A stretch of 64,000 bases of DNA, taken from Mycobacterium sp. (lineage in GTDB: Bacteria > Actinomycetota > Actinomycetes > Mycobacteriales > Mycobacteriaceae). The stretch covers positions 1-64,000 of the forward strand of contig JAOPWC010000185.1 of assembly GCA_025965895.1 (NCBI GenBank). The letters run 5' to 3'. The position numbers were made by a program, and so were the translations under genes. Numbering within the stretch: position 1 is the first letter of the stretch; the number at the start of each line of letters is the position of its first letter. Below, one piece after another: positions 11,994 to 24,313 of this stretch. Below the pieces are notes generated by a model, which was given only the letters and a program-made list of their open reading frames with translations, was not told where the DNA came from and did no database searches.

Positions 11994-13163
11994 TCATCGA
12001 CCGCAGTGCGGATTCCTGCCCTTCACCGCTGCTATTCGCAGCACGGACGCGTCGACACCGCTCATGCTCAATTCGCCGCCCGCGACCGCCGACTCCAGCC
12101 GGTCGAGCACCGCCGGAACTTCCGTGGTGGTGACCCACAGCGCGGTGTCGGCGCCGGCCTGCAACGCCCGCAACGCCGCCTCGGCGACGCCGTAGCGGTC
12201 GGTGATGGCGGCCATACTGGACAAGTCGTCGGTGAAGACCGGCCCGTCGAACGGGGGGCCACCGTATCCGGAACCGCCACGCAGCAGGCCGACGGCAGCC
12301 GGGCTCAGGCTCGCTGGGTCGTCCCCGGTCAAGCCGGGCACCTGAAGGTGGCCGATCATGACGCCGACCGGTGTCTGCGCCACCAGCGTCCGATAGGGCA
12401 CGAGGTCGAGGTTCTGCAGGTCGTCCAGCGGCGGCGTCACCACCCCACCTGCGTGCGAGTCGCCGGACGCGCGGCCGTGTCCGGGGAAGTGCTTGAGCAC
12501 AGGCAGTAAACCCGCGTCGCGCAGTCCGTGGGCGTACGCACCGGCGTACTGGGTGACCACAGCCGGGTCGGCGGAAAACGACCGGTCGCCGATCACGGTG
12601 TCGGCGGGCGCGTCGGTGACGTCGACCACCGGCGCGAAGTCGATCGTGATGCCGAGATTGCGCATCTGCCGGCCGCGGCCCAGCGCCAGCTGGTAGGCCT
12701 GGTCCGGTGTGCTGGTCTGTGCCAGCGCCCGTGCCGACGGCGCCGAGCCGATCAGCGACGACAGCCGAGACACCCGGCCGCCCTCCTCGTCGACGCTCAC
12801 CGCCAGTGGCAGCGGCCCGGCAGAGCCGGCGATGTCGGCAAGGGATCCGTCGGTCAGCATCGACACGTTGGTCCAACTGCCGATGAAGATGCCTCCGACG
12901 TGCTGATTGGCCACCACGGCCCGGGCGTCCGGGGCGCCGGTCACTCCGACCATCAGCAGCTGCGCGAGCTTGTCGCGAGTCGACATCGACGCCAGCAACG
13001 CCGTTCCGTCGCCGCAACTCGGCGACACGGGAGCGGCCTGGATCTGGCTGCTCAGCGGCTTGTCCGGTGGGGTGGAGTGCGCGGAGTGCCCGGCCCCGGG
13101 CGAGCAGGCCAGCAGCAACGCGGGCAGCGCGATGATCGCGGCCATACTTGGCGGGAATGGCAT
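11994..13163 (-). CDS. lpqI: Lipoprotein LpqI, glycoside hydrolase family 3 beta-N-acetylglucosaminidase
   Basis: 389 aa; lipobox ALLLACSPG; GH3 motifs (VSVDEEGGRVSRL, VLKHFPGHGRASGDSHAG, VFTDDLSSMAAI). Confidence 0.92.
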   Translation of the reverse strand: MPFPPSMAAIIALPALLLACSPGAGHSAHSTPPDKPLSSQIQAAPVSPSCGDGTALLASMSTRDKLAQLLMVGVTGAPDARAVVANQHVGGIFIGSWTNVSMLTDGSLADIAGSAGPLPLAVSVDEEGGRVSRLSSLIGSAPSARALAQTSTPDQAYQLALGRGRQMRNLGITIDFAPVVDVTDAPADTVIGDRSFSADPAVVTQYAGAYAHGLRDAGLLPVLKHFPGHGRASGDSHAGGVVTPPLDDLQNLDLVPYRTLVAQTPVGVMIGHLQVPGLTGDDPASLSPAAVGLLRGGSGYGGPPFDGPVFTDDLSSMAAITDRYGVAEAALRALQAGADTALWVTTTEVPAVLDRLESAVAGGELSMSGVDASVLRIAAVKGRNPHCGR

Positions 13164-13312
13164 CCGGCCATGCTGTCATGCCAGCGCCGCCAGCGGCCGA
13201 TCCGCCCCCACGGGGCAGTGTGGGTCCTGTTGACGGGCGTAGCGTTCATCTGCCGCGGGTACAACGGTGTGGTGAATCGATCTCTCGTCGACCAGATCGG
13301 GATGGAGGTGCG

Positions 13313-14182
13313 ATGAGGATCGGAGTGGTGTTCCCCCAGAGCGAGCTGGGCGGTGACGTCGGCGCGGTCCGGGCCTACGGCCAGCGCGTGGAGGAACTCG
13401 GGTATCGCCATCTGCTGGTGTACGACCACGTCGTCGGCGCCGATCCCGAGGTTTACCAGGGCTGGAACGGGCCTTACGACATCCACACCACCTTCCACGA
13501 GCCGTTGGTGATGTTCGGCTACCTCGCCGCGGTCACCACATCGCTCGAGCTGGTGACCGGCGTCATCATCCTGCCGCAGCGGCAGACGGTGCTGGTGGCC
13601 AAGCAGGCGACGGAGGTGGACCTGCTCAGCGCCGGCCGGCTGCGTCTGGGCATCGGGGTCGGGTGGAACCCCGTCGAATACGAAGCGCTCGGAGAGGACT
13701 TCCACACCCGAGGCAAGCGCTCCGAAGAGCAAGTCGAGCTGATGCGGATGCTGTGGACCCAACAATCGGTCACCTACCACGGCGACTACCACCGGGTGAC
13801 GGGTGCCGGCCTGGCACCGCTGCCGATCCAGCGGCCCATTCCGGTGTGGTTCGGCGCGCAGTCACCGCGCGCCTACCGGCGTGCCGGGCGTCTCGGCGAC
13901 GGCTGGTTTCCCCAGATGCAGCCGGGCCCGGAGTTCGATGAGGCCCGCCGTATCGTTCTGCAGGCGGCCAGCGACGCGGGGCGAGACCCGGCCAGCTTGG
14001 GGATGGACGGCCGTGTCACCTGGAGCCGTGATTCCGACGAGCTCGCCAAGTCGCTGCGCGGCTGGGCCGACGCCGGCGCCACCCACGTGTCGATCAACAC
14101 CATGGGCGCGGGTTTGACAACAGTCGACGATCACCTGGGCGCGCTGACTGCGGCCGCCGACGTCGCCAACACTGTGTCCTAG
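13313..14182 (+). CDS. LLM-class F420-dependent oxidoreductase (luciferase-like)
   Basis: ATG 13313, MRIGVVFPQSELGGDVGAVRAYGQRVEELGYRHLLVYDHVVGAD..., LRLGIGVGWNPVEYEALGEDFHTRGKRSEEQVELMRMLW. Confidence 0.9.
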   Translation: MRIGVVFPQSELGGDVGAVRAYGQRVEELGYRHLLVYDHVVGADPEVYQGWNGPYDIHTTFHEPLVMFGYLAAVTTSLELVTGVIILPQRQTVLVAKQATEVDLLSAGRLRLGIGVGWNPVEYEALGEDFHTRGKRSEEQVELMRMLWTQQSVTYHGDYHRVTGAGLAPLPIQRPIPVWFGAQSPRAYRRAGRLGDGWFPQMQPGPEFDEARRIVLQAASDAGRDPASLGMDGRVTWSRDSDELAKSLRGWADAGATHVSINTMGAGLTTVDDHLGALTAAADVANTVS

Positions 14183-14220
14183 CAGGCGATGTCCTAGCAG
14201 GCGATGTCCTAGTCGGCGAT
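14176..14220. repeat. Three tandem 15-bp units GTCCTAGYMGGCGAT
   Basis: 14176-14190, 14191-14205 identical; 14206-14220 with 2 differences; first copy contains the stop codon (TAG) of the LLM oxidoreductase. Confidence 0.95.
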
Positions 14221-14233
14221 CGGGTGAGTGGTG

Positions 14234-14572
14234 ATGTCGGTTCTGGTGGCGTTCTCCGTCACTCCGATAGGGGTCGGCGAAGGTGTCGGGGAGATCGTTG
14301 CCGAAGCCGTGAGAGTGGTGCGCGACTCAGGCCTTCCCAACAAGACCGATTCGATGTTCACGGTTATCGAGGCCGATACGTGGAACGAGGCCATGGCGGT
14401 TGTCCAGCGAGCGGTGGAAGCGGTGGCCGCTCGCGCGCCACGGGTCAGCACTGTCATCAAGGTGGACTGGCGCCGCGGCGCCACCGACGCCATGCGGGGC
14501 AAAGTCGACTCGGTGGAGGGCTACCTAGCTGATTCCGCCGGTGACTCCGGGGCCGCGCCGTCGACCGCGTAG
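14234..14572 (+). CDS. MTH1187/YkoF-type thiamine-binding family protein
   Basis: [67 protein letters not shown] opens at 14228. Confidence 0.82.
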
Positions 14573-14588
14573 CGGAACCGCCTCGCCG

Positions 14589-14999
14589 CTACCCGCCCAG
14601 ACCTGGTATCGGGAAGGCGTTCGCCCAGCTGCCATTCGCCAGCGACGTCATCATCGCGGGGCAGAACATCGATATCGCGATGCTGGTGAACATGCCGCTC
14701 ATGGCGGGAGACATGCCGTTGCCCGCCACGCCGGAGGCAACGGAGGCGAACGATCCGCCGGGCTGAGCGAGCATCGGACAGATCGACTGACCCATGGCCA
14801 CCGCGGCGCCGGGGTCGTTGTAGCCGACGCCGGCGTTGTTCAGCGTGTTGAGGAAGGAGTCCTGGGTCGTGTCTGCATGGGCCGGAGCGGCTGAAGCGGC
14901 CAGCGCAGTGACGACGCCGACGGATGCCAGCACCCGGACGGCCGTTGCGCGGCCGCCCGCCGGCAGGAACCGCTTGGGCCCTGCTTTCTGGACGGTCAT
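14589..14999 (-). CDS. Secreted DUF732-family protein
   Basis: 136 aa with signal peptide (VVTALAASAAPAHAD) and DSFLNTLNNAGVGYNDPGAAVAMGQSICPMLAQPGGSF. Confidence 0.85.
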   Translation of the reverse strand: MTVQKAGPKRFLPAGGRATAVRVLASVGVVTALAASAAPAHADTTQDSFLNTLNNAGVGYNDPGAAVAMGQSICPMLAQPGGSFASVASGVAGNGMSPAMSGMFTSIAISMFCPAMMTSLANGSWANAFPIPGLGG

Positions 15000-15273
15000 G
15001 TCGGACTCCTCACTATCGGTGGCGCTGGAAACACTTCAATCAACTTTAGGAACATTGCTTTACAGGAGTCACATTTGTAACACGAAGCGGTAAATGTTCG
15101 CACACTATGCGTTTCCTGCCGGGTTGCTGTGCGGTGGGAATGCCACGCTAATGGGTTTCCCTTGGTCGGCTGCGGAGGGGCGCTGCTCATGGCGAGATGT
15201 GCTATCCGCGGGCCCAATCACCTACTGTGGGTACTTTACTCGCGATGTGGGGGCGCCACTGGTGGAACACTCA

Positions 15274-16551
15274 ATGATGACAGACGTGCAACCAAATATC
15301 GAACCCGGTGGGAATGTCTCCCCCCGGGTTCGCCGTGTTGGTCCGGCGGCACTGGTCGCAGCTTTGGTGCTCTATCTCGCGGTGTACCTGCGCTGGCCCT
15401 CGGAAGCCCTACAGATCGACCTGTCTGTGTACCGCTTCGGGGCGACGCGGATCTTGCACGGACTCGATTTGTATTCGATCGGTTACACCGGCAACCCCAC
15501 CGAACTGCTCTTCATTTACCCGCCCTTCGCCGCGCTCTTCTTCATTCCGTTGGCCTTCATAGGCGAGCACTCGATGGACATTCTGTCGTTGCTCGCGATG
15601 GGCTCGCTGCTCACGTACACCGTGCAGCGGAGCCTGAAGTCGTTGGGGCTGAACGCGTCCCAAGGGCTGTGGAGTCTCAGCGCGCTGCTCGTCGCCGTCA
15701 CCGCGTGGCTCGAACCCGTCAGGCTGACAGTCCAGCTCGGCCAGATCAACCTCGTCATTCTGGCGGTTGTCGTCGCCGATCTCTTGGGTCCCGCCGGGCG
15801 AAAATGGGCGGGGGTCGGAATCGGCCTGATGGCAGGGATCAAATTGACCCCGGCAATCTTCATCGTCCTGCTGGTGTTGCTCGGCCGCGTCCGCCCGGCG
15901 GCGGTGGCGGCAGCGACGCTGATAGCGACTATCGCGCTCGGGTTTGCCGTTGCTCCAACGGATTCCAAGTTCTACTGGATCAAGAGACACTTTGCGGATG
16001 TCAGCCGAATCTCTCACGATCCGTTCGCCAACACCAGCGTGCACGGCCTGTTTCTGCGCCTGCAGTTCCTCGCTGCGCTCGGCACCGCGGTGGCGTTGGG
16101 GCTCGCGATCGCCGGGTTGGCCCTCGGCGCGATCGCATACCGGCGCGGCCACACCGTCCTGGCCCTCGCCGTTGTGGGAATGGCTTCGACCGCGGTGTCG
16201 CCGTTCAGCTGGAGCCATCACTGGGTGTGGTTCATACCTCTGATCGTTCACCTCGGCTATCGGGCCTGCGTGCTGCGTTCTGCCCTTTCGGGATGGGCGA
16301 TGTGGCTGTTGTGTGTGCTGTGCGGGGGATGGTTCGTCGCATTTCCGGGCGATACGCCACAGGCGGGTCTGCTGTCGCTACGGCCCGGCGGCATGTGGGA
16401 CAAGATCATCCCCGGCGCGTACGTCTTCGTCTTCCTGGCCGTCTGCGTCGTCACCGCAGTGTGGTTGTGGCGATCGGAGCGTGCCCTGTCGTCGCGCACG
16501 CACACCGCCACGCGTACCGAACCGGAGACTGCCGACGCGAAAGCCCTCTGA
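15274..16551 (+). CDS. Polyprenol-phosphate-dependent GT-C glycosyltransferase (GT87/DUF2029, PimE-like)
   Basis: Multi-TM; LQIDLSVYRFGATRILHGLDLYSIGYTGNPTELLFIYPPFAALFFIPL and GIKLTPAIFIVLLVLLGR, SPFSWSHHWVW motifs. Confidence 0.83.
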   Translation: MMTDVQPNIEPGGNVSPRVRRVGPAALVAALVLYLAVYLRWPSEALQIDLSVYRFGATRILHGLDLYSIGYTGNPTELLFIYPPFAALFFIPLAFIGEHSMDILSLLAMGSLLTYTVQRSLKSLGLNASQGLWSLSALLVAVTAWLEPVRLTVQLGQINLVILAVVVADLLGPAGRKWAGVGIGLMAGIKLTPAIFIVLLVLLGRVRPAAVAAATLIATIALGFAVAPTDSKFYWIKRHFADVSRISHDPFANTSVHGLFLRLQFLAALGTAVALGLAIAGLALGAIAYRRGHTVLALAVVGMASTAVSPFSWSHHWVWFIPLIVHLGYRACVLRSALSGWAMWLLCVLCGGWFVAFPGDTPQAGLLSLRPGGMWDKIIPGAYVFVFLAVCVVTAVWLWRSERALSSRTHTATRTEPETADAKAL

Positions 16552-17717: not shown

Positions 17718-19313
17718 TCAGGATGCCGCGTCGACCATGACGTCGGAGATCTGCGTGCGACTCTGCCCGTTGGTGGTGCCCAGCTTGGAGATCCACACCA
17801 GTACGGTGGATGTGGGCGCAGGGGAGTTGACCGGGATGCGATTGGGGCCCGGCTGCAAAGGCACCGACGGGCTCAGCTCGGTGGTGTCGGACAACGCCTT
17901 CGGGCCCAGGGTCGGCGACGAGCGGACCTGCACCTGCGTCCCGGTGCTGGGAACGTCGAGCCGGACCGCGGTGACCACCGCGGGTCGCGGCAACTGCAGC
18001 AGCAGGCCCACGCCGCTCTTGAAGTTCGGGAACGGCGCGGAATCGAAGTAGGTGTCGGTGGACCACCCCGTTGTGGAGGCGGCGTCGATGGCCAACGCTG
18101 CCTGCCCCGGGTTGTCCGCTCCACCACCCGGCGAGAACACCGTTGCCGCAACGGGTTTGACCGTTAACGCCGGCCGGTTGGCCGGTGTAGGCGGTGGCGA
18201 AGATAACGACGGCGCAGCCAGGCCGAGCCGGTTGGTGTCGAACTTGTTCACGTCCCCGAACACGCGGCTGAGCACCGACGCCAACGCCACCAAGGCGACC
18301 ACGACTATCACGGCGGCCGCGCCCATCCCCGCTAGGATCCCGGCGCGTCGCCGCCCCCGAACCTCCTGGAACAGACCCGGGATATCGCGCACCGGAGCCC
18401 GCCTCTGAGACGGCGGCGGAGCAGGCGCAACCACCGCGGGCATCGGCCACGTGCGATCGGCCTCCGCGATGGCCTGATAAAGCCCGTCCGACAGGGAGCG
18501 GGCGCCGGTGATCCCGCGGTCGGAACACACCGCGCGCGCAGCCAAAGCTGAGATGGGGAACGGGATGTCGAGGTTGACGGCCTGCGGCACCTCGGGCAGG
18601 CCGTCGGGATCGCGCCCGGCGGGGGCCATCCCGCTCGGAAGCCCCGATTCGGGCAGCGCCCAGCGATCGACAAGCAGGGCATAAAGGGCGGCACCGATGC
18701 CGCGAACGTCGTCCTGCGGCGTCGCGCCGGGCATTGTGGCGGGGAAGGCCAGTACGACATCGCCGCCGATGCTGACCCGCAGCCGGCTCGGATGGTCAAT
18801 CGACAGTGCCATGCCCGACCGGTGCGCCATATCGGCCGCCGCCGCCAGCGCCTGGTTGGCGCGAGCTGCCCCGATCGGGGAAGGCGAGATGTCGGCAACC
18901 TCTTTCAGCGACGCGCCACGGATCCACTCGCAGACGACCAATCCACCCTCAGCGCTGCGGGCCACGTCCAGCAACCGGGCAATGCCCGGCATGTCGAATC
19001 GGCTCAGCCGCAGCGTGCGGGTCAGGATGTCGCCCACCGCATCGCCGGGCCCGTCATCGAGGCCGACGATGGTAACCGCGACTTGGCGGTTTAGCGCGGT
19101 ATCGAGCGCCTGCCAGAACTGCAGCCCGGCGGGCCCACCGTGATGCACGAGCAGCCGGTACCGGCCGTCGGCGATGCTGGCACCCGCGACCAGTCGCACC
19201 GGTGTTCCCGAATTGGCGCCTGCGAGGTCGTCGACAACCGGACGCGTGTCCGATGGGACCGCGTCACTCGCCGCCTGGCCTACGAAGTTTTCAGCCACCG
19301 CCCTCTCCCCCAC
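17718..19313 (-). CDS. Stand-alone pseudokinase - TM - discoidin-like protein resembling the C-terminal half of mycobacterial MviN (Rv3910), without the MurJ flippase domain
   Basis: 531 aa: VAGASIADGRYRLLVHHGGPAGLQFWQALDTALNRQVAVTIVGLDD... SMALSIDHPSRLRVSIGGDVVLAFPATMPGATPQDDVRGIGAALYALLVDRW..., single TM (AGMGAAAVIVVVALVALASVLSRVFGD), C-terminal F5/8-like region (AALAIDAASTTGWSTDTYFD... PAVVTAVRLDVPSTGTQVQVRSS). Confidence 0.8.
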   Translation of the reverse strand: MGERAVAENFVGQAASDAVPSDTRPVVDDLAGANSGTPVRLVAGASIADGRYRLLVHHGGPAGLQFWQALDTALNRQVAVTIVGLDDGPGDAVGDILTRTLRLSRFDMPGIARLLDVARSAEGGLVVCEWIRGASLKEVADISPSPIGAARANQALAAAADMAHRSGMALSIDHPSRLRVSIGGDVVLAFPATMPGATPQDDVRGIGAALYALLVDRWALPESGLPSGMAPAGRDPDGLPEVPQAVNLDIPFPISALAARAVCSDRGITGARSLSDGLYQAIAEADRTWPMPAVVAPAPPPSQRRAPVRDIPGLFQEVRGRRRAGILAGMGAAAVIVVVALVALASVLSRVFGDVNKFDTNRLGLAAPSLSSPPPTPANRPALTVKPVAATVFSPGGGADNPGQAALAIDAASTTGWSTDTYFDSAPFPNFKSGVGLLLQLPRPAVVTAVRLDVPSTGTQVQVRSSPTLGPKALSDTTELSPSVPLQPGPNRIPVNSPAPTSTVLVWISKLGTTNGQSRTQISDVMVDAAS

Positions 19314-19349: not shown

Positions 19350-19721
19350 TTAGCCGCTCATTGGTGGGCGGCTTCCTCCCGCGGTTCCCAGTCTTCCTGC
19401 TCCTCCTCGTATTACGAACGCGCCGGCGATCGCGATCACTCCGACGACCACGAGAGGAATCGTCCATGCCCGCCGATGCGACAGCGCCGACTGGCATTCG
19501 GCCACATAGCTGGTGTGGGGGACGAACTCGCTCACCACCGGAAGGTTCGCCAGGTTCTTGCTGTCCGCATCACGGGCGGCGGAGAGGTCAGACGCTATCC
19601 CGTTCCCGCAGCCGATCGTGTCGCCGTTGGCACCGGACACCGAGACCGGCACCAGTAGACCGACGACGCCGGCGATCAACAGGATCGCTCCCGCCAGCAT
19701 GATCAACCTTCGCAAAGTCAT
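19350..19721 (-). CDS. Small two-TM membrane protein, unknown function
   Basis: ATG 19721 MTLRRLIMLAGAILLIAGVVGLLVPVSVSGANGDTIGCGNGIASDLSAARDADSKNLANLPVV...; second TM WTIPLVVVGVIAIAGAFVI. Confidence 0.65.
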   Translation of the reverse strand: MTLRRLIMLAGAILLIAGVVGLLVPVSVSGANGDTIGCGNGIASDLSAARDADSKNLANLPVVSEFVPHTSYVAECQSALSHRRAWTIPLVVVGVIAIAGAFVIRGGAGRLGTAGGSRPPMSG

Positions 19722-19911
19722 GTTGTGCTCCCTGCCACGACATATCGGAGACGGCGTCGGCTGCCGTCTCGCCCTAGTTATGCCCACTTTTCGGCCATTC
19801 ATCACTTCCGATAGCCGATCGGCGCTGCCCCGCTCGTGGCGGCGGGGCGTTGACCGCCTCTTCTGCTACGTTGGCGACAAACCCCGACGTCAACTTCCTA
19901 GGAGCCCGAGG

Positions 19912-20085
19912 ATGAACCGGTTCTTGCTGCCCGCGGCGGCCAGCATCGTGGTCGGTCTGCTACTGGGTGCGGCCGCGGTCTTTGGTGTGACGCTAATGGT
20001 GCAGCAAGACACCAAGTCGCCACTGACCGCGGGCGATCCGCAGTCCTCGGTACTCAACCGGGTGGAGTACGGCAACCGCAGCTAA
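19912..20085 (+). CDS. DUF2613 small secreted/membrane protein (Rv0236A-like)
   Basis: 57 aa MNRFLLPAAASIVVGLLLGAAAVFGVTLMVQQDTKSPLTAGDPQSSVLNRVEYGNRS, directly upstream of aftD. Confidence 0.85.
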   Translation: MNRFLLPAAASIVVGLLLGAAAVFGVTLMVQQDTKSPLTAGDPQSSVLNRVEYGNRS

Positions 20086-20119: not shown

Positions 20120-23100
20120 TTGTGGGCCGTCGGGGCCGCCGCGCTGATCCTGTCCTTCGCCCAGTCGCCGGGACTGATCTCCCCCGACACCAAGCTCGAC
20201 CTCACCGCGAATCCGCTGCGGTTCTTGGAGCGGGCCGCCAATCTGTGGAACAGCGAGTTGCCGTTCGGCCAGGCGCAGAACCAGGCGTACGGATACCTGT
20301 TTCCGCACGGGGCGTTTTTCCTGCTCGGCCACACGCTGGGGCTGCCCGGCTGGGTCACCCAACGCCTGTGGTGGGCACTTCTGCTGACCGTCGGTTTCTG
20401 GGGGCTGCTGCGCGTCGCCGAGGCGCTGGGTATCGGCACGACCAGTTCGCGGGTCGTGGCCGCGGCGGCGTTCGCGTTGTCGCCGCGCGTGCTGACCACG
20501 GTCGGGTCCATTTCGTCGGAGACGCTGCCGATGATGCTGGCACCGTGGGTCCTGCTGCCGGTGATCCTCGCGCTGCGGGGCCAAAGCAATCTGCGCGGGT
20601 TGGCCGCGCGGGCGGCCCTGGCCGTCGCGTTGATGGGTGCGGTCAACGCCGTCGCGACGCTGACGGGCTGCCTGCCCGCGCTGATCTGGTGGGCCTGCCA
20701 CCGGCCGGACCGACGGTGGTGGCGGTTCACCGCATGGTGGCTGCTCGGCACCGTGCTGGCCACCTGGTGGTGGCTGGTGGCGCTGATCCTGCTGGGCCGC
20801 GTCAGCCCACCTTTCCTGGACTACATCGAATCGTCGGGTGTCACCACCCAGTGGACGTCGCTGATCGAGGTGCTGCGCGGCACCGACAGCTGGACACCGT
20901 TCGTCGCGCCCGGCGCCACCGCGGGCTCGTCGCTTGTGACCGGGCCGGTGGCGACCCTGGCCACGACGGTGGTGGCCGCGGCCGGCGTGGCCGCGCTGAC
21001 ATTGCGCTCGATGCCCGCCCGCGGGCGGCTGATCACGATGCTGCTCATCGGCGTCACGCTGCTGGCAGCCGGCTACTCCGGCGGCCTTGGATCGCCCCTG
21101 GCGCAGCACGTGCAGGCGTTCCTCGACGGGGGCGGCGCCCCGCTGCGCAACGTGCACAAGCTCGAACCCGTGATCCGGCTGCCGCTGGTCCTGGGTATCG
21201 CCCACCTGCTGGGACGTGTACCGCTGCCCGGCAGCGCGCCGCGGCGGGTCTGGGTCAACGCGCTCGCCCATCCCGAGCACGACAAGCGCGTCGCCGTCGG
21301 CATCGTCGTCCTCATCGCGCTTGCCGTCAGCACCTCGCTGGCCTGGACAGGGCGGCTGACGCCGCCGGGCGCGTTCGGCGCGATACCGCAGTACTGGCAC
21401 GACACCGCTGACTGGCTCGACGCACACAACAACGAGGGGCAGCCGCGGGGCCGGGTCCTGGTGGTACCGGGGTCGCCGTTCGCGACGCAGGTCTGGGGCA
21501 CCAGCCACGACGAGCCGCTGCAGGTGTTGGGCAACAGCCCATGGGGTGTCCGTGACTCCGTGCCTTTGACCCCTCCGCAGACCATCCGGGCGCTGGATTC
21601 CGTCCAACGGCTGTTCGCCGAGGGTCGTCCGTCCGCCGGCCTCGCTGATACGCTTGCCCGACAAGGCGTTTCGTACCTCGTGGTGCGTAACGACCTGGAG
21701 CCGGACACCTCACGTTCGGCGCGGCCGATCCTGGTACATCGCACCGTGGAAGGCTCCCCGGGGCTGACGAAGGTCGCACAGTTCGGCACTCCGGTCGGCG
21801 CCGGGACGATCTCGGGGTTCGTCGCCGACAGCGACCTGCGGCCCCGATACCCCGCGGTGGAGATCTACCGGGTCGAAACGAAATCCAGCTCCACCCCCGG
21901 CGCTTCGTACTTCGCCGACGCCGACGCGATGGCGCGCGTGGACGGCGGGCCGGAGGCGCTGCTCCGGCTCGACGAACGCCGCCGGTTGACGCACCAGCCG
22001 CCGCTGGGACCCGTGCTCACCACGGCCGACGCCCAACACGCCGGACTGGCAGTGCCCGTCGTCACGGTCACTGACACGCCGGCGGCCCGGGAAACCGACT
22101 ATGGCCGTGTCGACGATCACTCCTCGGCGGTGCGGACCCGAGACGACCGCCGCAACACGTTCAACCGGGTGCCGGACTACCCGAGCACCGCGGCGATGGT
22201 CTTCAGCGAGTGGACGGGCGGGCGGATCACCGTGTCCAGCTCGGCGTCCGACTCCACCGCGCTGCCCAACGTCTCCCCGGCGAGCGGGCCCACCGCGGCG
22301 ATCGACGGCGACCCGGCTACCAGCTGGGTGTCCAATGCGCTGCAGGCCGCGGTCGGCCAGTGGCTACAGATCGACTTCGACAAACCCGTCACCAATGCGG
22401 CGATCACGATCACTCCGAGCGCGACCGCGGTTGGCGCACAGGTCCGCAAGATTCAGGTCTCCACGGCGACCGGCACCACCACGCTGCGCTTCGACAAGGC
22501 CGGCGAACCGCTCACCGCGGCGCTGCCCTACGGCGAGACACCGTGGGTGCGGGTGACCGCGATCGGCACCGACGACGACTCCCCCGGCGTGCAGTTCGGC
22601 ATCACCGACGTCGCGGTGACCCAGTATGACGCCGACAGCTTCGCGCACCCGGTTGAGTTGCGCCACACCGTGGCGGTCCCAGGCCCCCCGACCGGTTCAG
22701 TAGTCGCGGGATGGGACCTCGGCCCGGAGCTGCTCGGCCGGCTTGGCTGCGCCGAAAGCCCCGAGCGGGTGCGGTGCGCCGCTGCGATGGCACTGGCCCC
22801 CGAGGAGCCGGTGAACTTCAGCCGCACGTTGACGGTGCCCGAGCCGACCACCGTCACGCCGATGGTGTGGGTGCGGGCCAGGCAGGGACCGAAACTGGCT
22901 GACCTGGTTGCCGCACCCGGGGCGGCACGGGCCTTCGGCGACGCCGACATGATCGACGTGTCCGGTTCGGCCTATGCCGCCGCCGACGGCGACCCCCGCA
23001 CGTCGTGGACGGCGCCCCAGGGCGTCGTGCACGGCAAGAACCCACCCACCCTGACCTTGCGATTGCCTGCACCCGCGCTGGTGACGGGGTTGCGGCTCAC

Positions 23101-24313
23101 GCCGAGCTCGTCGTCGGTCCCGGCCCATCCCACGCTGGTCGCCGTCGATCTCGGCAACGGCCCGCAGGTCCGCCGGGTGACGGAATCGGGGGACGGCGAC
23201 AGCGGCGTCCAGACGTTGCGGCTGACTCCGCAGGTCACCCAGACCGTCAAACTCAGCGTGCTGAGCTGGGACGACGTCATCGACCGCACCGCGCTGGGCT
23301 TCGACCAACTGAAGCCCCCCGGCATCGCGGAGATCGCCGCACTGGGCCAGGACGGCAAACCGATCGCCCCCGCCGACGCGGCACGCAACCGAGGCCGCCA
23401 CGTCGACATCGACTGCGGCCAGGGCCCGATGATCGCGATCACCGGGCGGTTCGTGCCGACCTCGGTCCACACCACCGTCGATGCGCTGCTGTCCGGCGAG
23501 CCGATCGCCGCACAACCGTGCCAGCGTGATCCGATCGCGCTGCCCTCGGGCCGACAGGAGCTGCTGATCAGCCCCGGCCCCGCGTTCGTCGTCGACGGCG
23601 CCCAACTGGCCGGGCCCGTCGCCACCGGCCTGCGCACTGCGGAAACCACTGCCGCGGACACCGGCACCTGGGAGCCCGCGCGCCGCGAGGTGCGCACGAC
23701 GCCGGCCGCGTCGCCTCGGGTGCTGGTGGTGCCCGAATCCGTCAGCCCCGGCTGGATCGCGCGCACCGCCGACGGCATCCGGCTGACCCCGGTCACCGTC
23801 AACGGCTGGCAGCAGGGCTGGGTGGTGCCGGCCGGCACCGGAGGCACGATCACGCTGACATTCCCGTCCAACGATCTGTACCGCGCGGGGCTGGGCGGCG
23901 GGCTTGCGCTGCTGCCGCTGCTCGCGCTGCTGGCGCTGGTGCCGCCACGGCGACGGCGCCCTCCCGATGAGGCCGCCCGGCCCTGGCGGCCGAACGCGGC
24001 GGCCAGCGCGGTCGCGGTGCTCGCGGTGGGATGGGTGATCGCCGGCGTGGGCGGCGCGGCGGTGTTCGCGGCGTTGCTCGCCCTGCGGTACTGGCTCACG
24101 AGGCGGCCAAAGGGGCCCTCAGGCACCGCGATAGCGGGCACCTCGGCAGCGGCGCTGATCCTCGCGGGGGCCGTGTTGTCCCGGCATCCTTGGCGATCGG
24201 TCGGCGGATACGTCGGGCACTCATGGGGTGTACAGCTGCTGGCGCTGATCGCGATCGGCGCGGTCGCGGCATCTGCGGTGTCAATGACCAGCCGCAAAGA
24301 CCCGGTCCCGTAG
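20120..24313 (+). CDS. aftD: Alpha-(1->3)-arabinofuranosyltransferase AftD
   Basis: ~1400 aa; SFAQSPGLISPDTKLDLTANPLRFLERAANLWNSELPFGQAQNQAYGYLFPHG; C-terminal CBM-like and TM regions. Start uncertain: TTG at 20120 or a non-ATG start further upstream. Confidence 0.93.
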   Translation: MWAVGAAALILSFAQSPGLISPDTKLDLTANPLRFLERAANLWNSELPFGQAQNQAYGYLFPHGAFFLLGHTLGLPGWVTQRLWWALLLTVGFWGLLRVAEALGIGTTSSRVVAAAAFALSPRVLTTVGSISSETLPMMLAPWVLLPVILALRGQSNLRGLAARAALAVALMGAVNAVATLTGCLPALIWWACHRPDRRWWRFTAWWLLGTVLATWWWLVALILLGRVSPPFLDYIESSGVTTQWTSLIEVLRGTDSWTPFVAPGATAGSSLVTGPVATLATTVVAAAGVAALTLRSMPARGRLITMLLIGVTLLAAGYSGGLGSPLAQHVQAFLDGGGAPLRNVHKLEPVIRLPLVLGIAHLLGRVPLPGSAPRRVWVNALAHPEHDKRVAVGIVVLIALAVSTSLAWTGRLTPPGAFGAIPQYWHDTADWLDAHNNEGQPRGRVLVVPGSPFATQVWGTSHDEPLQVLGNSPWGVRDSVPLTPPQTIRALDSVQRLFAEGRPSAGLADTLARQGVSYLVVRNDLEPDTSRSARPILVHRTVEGSPGLTKVAQFGTPVGAGTISGFVADSDLRPRYPAVEIYRVETKSSSTPGASYFADADAMARVDGGPEALLRLDERRRLTHQPPLGPVLTTADAQHAGLAVPVVTVTDTPAARETDYGRVDDHSSAVRTRDDRRNTFNRVPDYPSTAAMVFSEWTGGRITVSSSASDSTALPNVSPASGPTAAIDGDPATSWVSNALQAAVGQWLQIDFDKPVTNAAITITPSATAVGAQVRKIQVSTATGTTTLRFDKAGEPLTAALPYGETPWVRVTAIGTDDDSPGVQFGITDVAVTQYDADSFAHPVELRHTVAVPGPPTGSVVAGWDLGPELLGRLGCAESPERVRCAAAMALAPEEPVNFSRTLTVPEPTTVTPMVWVRARQGPKLADLVAAPGAARAFGDADMIDVSGSAYAAADGDPRTSWTAPQGVVHGKNPPTLTLRLPAPALVTGLRLTPSSSSVPAHPTLVAVDLGNGPQVRRVTESGDGDSGVQTLRLTPQVTQTVKLSVLSWDDVIDRTALGFDQLKPPGIAEIAALGQDGKPIAPADAARNRGRHVDIDCGQGPMIAITGRFVPTSVHTTVDALLSGEPIAAQPCQRDPIALPSGRQELLISPGPAFVVDGAQLAGPVATGLRTAETTAADTGTWEPARREVRTTPAASPRVLVVPESVSPGWIARTADGIRLTPVTVNGWQQGWVVPAGTGGTITLTFPSNDLYRAGLGGGLALLPLLALLALVPPRRRRPPDEAARPWRPNAAASAVAVLAVGWVIAGVGGAAVFAALLALRYWLTRRPKGPSGTAIAGTSAAALILAGAVLSRHPWRSVGGYVGHSWGVQLLALIAIGAVAASAVSMTSRKDPVP

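Follow-up and report, generated by a model that had tools for sequence, protein, structure and literature searches.

A MurJ-less paralogue of the MviN regulatory module with an altered phospho-switch in Mycobacterium

In Mycobacterium tuberculosis (Mtb), PknB phosphorylates the tail of the MviN pseudokinase, and FhaA is then recruited (PMC12599244). Turapov et al. (PMC6180346) report that CwlM binds to the linker of MurJ (E541-F680), which is essential, and that the pseudokinase has a regulatory role and can be dispensed with. The role of the PknB-MviN-FhaA complex is disputed: both inhibition and promotion of peptidoglycan synthesis have been ascribed to FhaA (PMC11898655). Here we describe a gene of a Mycobacterium sp. 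that, judged by sequence and by its structural model, is almost certainly a MurJ-less copy of the MviN regulatory half (ActPs3 / MviN pseudokinase). A search of open-access literature gave no description of mycobacterial MviN paralogues that lack MurJ.

The gene is located in a 64,000-nucleotide stretch of the genome (the window), at positions 17718-19313 of the minus strand, and forms an open frame of 531 codons whose product is 63% identical to the genome's own MviN. An earlier note on this DNA, made from the letters alone, had given the frame and its length correctly and had named no strand, which is added here. The ribosome-binding-like sequence GGGGGAGAGGGC directly precedes codon 6, which suggests that the true start is the GTG at 19298. 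The GC content of the gene (0.697) and its GC3 (0.827) are comparable to those of its neighbours and of the own mviN (GC 0.694 and GC3 0.838 in the own mviN).

In a phmmer search, residues 37-293 of the window protein matched the pseudokinase of Rv3910 (3OUN/3OTV/3UQC) with an E value of about 5e-96. The pseudokinase domain was delimited at residues 38-288 (18450-19202, minus strand) using phmmer, residue comparison and comparison of the model with 3OTV. It carries VAVT in place of VAIK, LSIDHPSR in place of HRDxxxxN and AFPA in place of DFG, and the absence of the VAIK Lys, HRD and DFG noticed earlier is borne out. The corresponding motifs of Mtb MviN are VALT, Lsidhpsr and Y-- (PMC12599244); LSIDHPSR is identical in the two proteins, whereas VALT in Mtb stands against VAVT in the window protein. 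The AlphaFold2 model of the window protein had a mean pLDDT of 85.6 and matched 3OTV with a TM score of 0.95 (TMt), an rmsd of 1.2 A and 66% identity; the predicted fold is that of 3OTV. Residues F66 and W130 are the equivalents of Mtb F724 and W789, bulky residues that fill the ATP pocket in MviN, and both are invariant in 51 MviN proteins and in 36 proteins of an older MurJ-less clade described below. The residue numbers given for the back-to-back dimer, L750 and D793 (PMC12599244), did not map onto our alignment.

The pseudokinase is followed by a single TM helix at about residues 322-347 (18273-18350, minus strand; Kyte-Doolittle maximum 2.81; helix 314-352 in the model), as had been read from the sequence previously. 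No Pfam MurJ match was obtained for the window protein, which has one TM helix versus 14 in MurJ. Beyond the membrane lies an extracytoplasmic domain predicted to adopt a CBM32/F5-8-type-C-like fold (residues 379-531; 17721-18179, minus strand). The AlphaFold2 model of this outer domain had a mean pLDDT of 93, and a Foldseek search with it returned a best E value of 2.5e-6, with CBM32 and F5/8 type C structures among the top matches; CBM32 structures matched with E values of about 1e-5 and TM scores of 0.6-0.7. In a Pfam search, the outer domain of the window protein had no match, and an older-clade relative gave a weak CBM_AftD match (E 0.0037). The F5/8-like C-terminus claimed in the earlier note is supported by the predicted fold, but not by sequence profiles.

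In domain order, dead motifs, F724/W789 equivalents, phospho-acceptor Thr, TM helix and outer domain, the window protein resembles the C-terminal half of Rv3910 / MSMEG_6929. It differs from Rv3910 in that it lacks the MurJ flippase, has little linker, is encoded at a separate locus, carries a Trp at the acidic +1 position of the switch and has an eroded tail helix. The match to Rv3910, the identity to the own MviN and the shared fold bear out the earlier proposal that the gene is a paralogue of MviN's regulatory half without MurJ. The same genome has a full-length mviN (C105:41359-45231), a frame of 1291 codons with a MurJ domain and 63% identity to the window protein over the module, and its contig also carries fhaA and pknB, which argues for duplication rather than splitting of the gene. 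The earlier note had left splitting as an alternative, and it is ruled out, since the full mviN coexists with the copy. There is no MurJ remnant upstream of the window gene, and DNA similarity to mviN is confined within the gene. Among the plasmids listed, no MurJ-less relative was present and only a Nocardia and a Tsukamurella record matched, neither covering 80% of the query; a phage search gave zero matches. A plasmid or phage origin was rejected on the basis of these searches.

Variation in mviN architecture was also observed elsewhere. The pseudokinase-TM-outer domain module is a gene of its own, like the window gene, in three further genera of the family (L103, L106 and L108), where it directly adjoins murJ; the window gene, by contrast, supplements a full mviN and lies far from it. 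These adjacent, separate genes indicate that the module changes architecture readily. In genome G320 (L092:1251-4988), mviN occurs as adjacent frames for MurJ (657 codons) and the pseudokinase module (588 codons), either a natural split or a frameshift, and a second copy of the module was not seen in that genome. Genome G056 has two further mviN-like copies that are broken up over several frames (L072:4001-7624 and 12763-15863), and an intact mviN is also present.

Upstream of the window gene, on the same strand and across a 36-bp gap, is an ORF for a small membrane protein (19350-19805, minus strand; 151 aa), the conserved part of which begins at the ATG at 19721. Judged by this arrangement, co-transcription of the two genes is possible. 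A link between them was considered and rejected: the family is common, with relatives in 145 of 199 mycobacteria, and is not consistently adjacent to pseudokinase genes at the loci compared. A DUF2613 gene (19912-20085, plus strand) and aftD (20120-24313, plus strand; Pfam GT-C_AftD, E 2e-282) follow, aftD being divergent from the window gene. The earlier note had placed the gene beside a GT87 gene and aftD. Both are nearby, but neither is directly adjacent: the GT87 gene is the second one along, beyond a dienelactone-hydrolase gene, and the small membrane-protein and DUF2613 genes separate the window gene from aftD. This setting, next to the DUF2613-aftD pair and near GT87, is what would favor a dedicated regulator of arabinogalactan or mannan synthesis coupled to aftD and GT87. 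We regard such a role as improbable, given that aftD is divergent with a small gene in between, and that neighbourhoods of the older clade are varied and aftD was not found in them.

Across 397 Mycobacterium genomes, the closest relatives of the window protein are full-length MviN proteins, at about 60% identity. An orthologue was found neither in a GTDB r220 contig scan, which may leave out records very near the window genome, nor in 120 relatives, so selection is readable from one sequence only. The duplicate proposed by the earlier note is real, but MurJ-less genes of this kind are not unique in the genus: in the set of genomes that gave two or more matches, at least 38 of the 397 species carry a standalone MurJ-less module that is 41-52% identical to the window protein. 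The large tree included 36 such modules and united them in a single, fully supported clade (loci L034-L050, L052 and L054-L071). As in the window genome, these genes encode pseudokinase, TM helix and outer domain without the flippase and are additional to mviN; they differ in the loss of the Thr947 switch and in having in its place a conserved juxtamembrane YAxFRNFG motif of their own. Their neighbourhoods vary by subclade, and a search for a shared one was uninformative.

The window gene was very probably copied from the mviN of its own lineage, separately from the older clade, which apparently had an independent and earlier origin. We base this reading on a linker match, on diagnostic columns and on the outer-domain tree. 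The disordered N-terminus of the window protein (residues 4-29; 19227-19304, minus strand) is homologous to the cytoplasmic linker of the own MviN, with a local alignment z of 6.6 and none of 300 shuffles as good, versus 2.6 and 2.5 for the next-best linkers. This linker evolves fast. At 12 diagnostic columns, the window protein has the MviN state at five and the state of the older clade at none. In the trees, it falls outside the older clade and joins its own MviN together with the MviN of G005 (85/75), which is the closest one to the MviN of the window genome, and the outer-domain tree recovers the same grouping weakly (71). The window protein might instead be a divergent member of the older clade, with a single origin for all mycobacterial MurJ-less modules. 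An AU test did not reject its joining to that clade (p 0.27), and its branch is long (0.57, compared with 0.18 for the own MviN). We nonetheless consider a single origin unlikely in view of the linker homology, the diagnostic states, the lack of the YAxFRNFG motif and an identity to the clade that is lower than that to MviN. The linker comparison was more informative about origin than the AU tests.

Two contig-end fragments were noted among these genomes. In G200 (L051:4527-5567), the end of a contig holds the front half of an MviN pseudokinase, 69% identical to the window protein; the sequence then diverges, owing either to an assembly break or to a broken copy. In G005 (L212:79-555), the edge of a contig carries part of a further outer domain of MviN type, which is similar to the older MurJ-less clade.

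The segment that sets the window protein apart is the tail helix and switch (residues 266-300; 18414-18518, minus strand), defined by alignment of 51 mycobacterial MviN proteins. We take Thr947 to be the phospho-acceptor of Mtb MviN, and its position in the alignment fits the F724/W789 numbering. Its equivalent is Thr288 (codon 18450-18452), in the context ADRTWPM in the window protein versus ADRT[ED]xx. The R-T-[ED] motif is found in all 51 mycobacterial MviN modules, and the window protein has Trp289 at the acidic +1 position, with Arg287 and the hydrophobic +3 residue retained. Identity between the window protein and its own MviN is 0.73 in the N-lobe, 0.71 in the C-lobe, 0.46 in the tail, 0.49 in the TM region, 0.40 in the stalk and 0.63 in the outer domain, versus 0.79, 0.75, 0.76, 0.52, 0.52 and 0.60 between the own MviN and other MviNs. 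By these comparisons, the tail stands out, no part of the domain being more altered than the helix that precedes the Thr, and the kinase-like and outer domains are well kept.

Residues that are invariant in MviN are kept by the window protein at 154 of 171 positions. The helix that precedes the switch accounts for five of the 17 losses, out of seven invariant residues at 273-279 (p 1e-4 for a stretch picked post hoc; 0.004-0.006 for wider stretches). All 38 columns that are invariant in both MviN and the older clade are kept, with a chance of about 2e-8 at an average keeping rate of 63%, as a rough estimate. This complete retention, together with 531 intact codons, a GC3 like that of the neighbours and a fold predicted with high confidence, makes it very improbable that the gene is a decaying, functionless relic, in spite of its presence in one species only and its faster branch.

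Because of the Trp at +1 and the altered preceding helix, binding of FhaA by the window protein is not to be assumed. Around the Mtb sites that lose phosphate on PknA depletion, position +2 is enriched in Pro and position +3 in hydrophobic residues (PMC7164672). The WPM of the window protein matches this pattern, and with these features a shift of the phosphorylating kinase is possible.

We propose that a partial duplicate of mviN retained the linker end, pseudokinase, TM helix and outer domain, and that the copy shed the flippase with its 14 TM helices and the greater part of the CwlM-binding linker. The product would be a membrane-anchored sensor-adaptor uncoupled from lipid II flipping. On the outside it would sense the envelope ligand that MviN senses, through its outer domain, and its pseudokinase may pair back-to-back like that of MviN, with itself, with MviN or with a kinase. 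Thr288 would serve as a phosphorylation site and as the docking point for an FHA protein, which may be FhaA, diverted from MviN, or another partner recognized via the altered tail. Putative competition with MviN for FhaA and PknB is plausible; the earlier note had suggested that the protein could compete with, or report to, the PknB/FhaA control. Since a short stretch is all that the window protein has of the linker, it is expected to act, if at all, on the kinase/FHA branch rather than through CwlM.

We give about an even chance to such a sensor-adaptor having a working but retuned phospho-switch. Loss of the invariant acidic +1 residue could also mean a dead switch. The protein would then be a dominant partner or a ligand sink, acting only by dimerisation of its pseudokinase, either with MviN or with a kinase, and by binding ligand outside, and would recruit no FHA protein. 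We hold a dead switch to be possible but the less favored of the two, and not far behind. The eroded tail helix fits it, as does the high identity that remains in both lobes and the outer domain. The older clade lacks the Thr yet is retained in 38 species, and its persistence indicates that the module can be retained without this switch. On the other hand, Thr288, Arg287 and the hydrophobic +3 residue survive in a tail that is otherwise much changed. With its altered switch, the window protein may tap into cell-wall-building signalling without flipping. The flippase-less copy with its changed switch and the switchless older clade provide natural variation in which flipping is set apart from sensing, dimerisation and FhaA recruitment.

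The outer domain is also found on active kinases. About 93 of the 397 mycobacterial genomes had a match to the outer domain only. A sample of 20 such loci was examined together with L053 and L073; among these 22, 19 had intact HRD and DFG, one had no kinase motifs and for two no frame was found. The presence of this domain on real kinases suggests a common envelope ligand. We tentatively suggest, as a possibility short of an even chance, that the MviN outer domain is one shared envelope sensor with three outputs, namely the flippase-pseudokinase, MurJ-less adaptors (made at least twice) and active PknI-like kinases, and that the window gene is a freshly made node whose switch has been redirected to another kinase or FHA partner. 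PknI-like Ser/Thr kinases with an MviN-type outer domain occur at L053:4998-6896, L073:3339-5471 and loci L222-L240, among others; their outer domains are about 60% identical to that of MviN, and they have a complete kinase domain with HRD and DFG, whereas the window protein has a pseudokinase. The nearest solved kinase domains are 7NAA and that of Mtb PknI.
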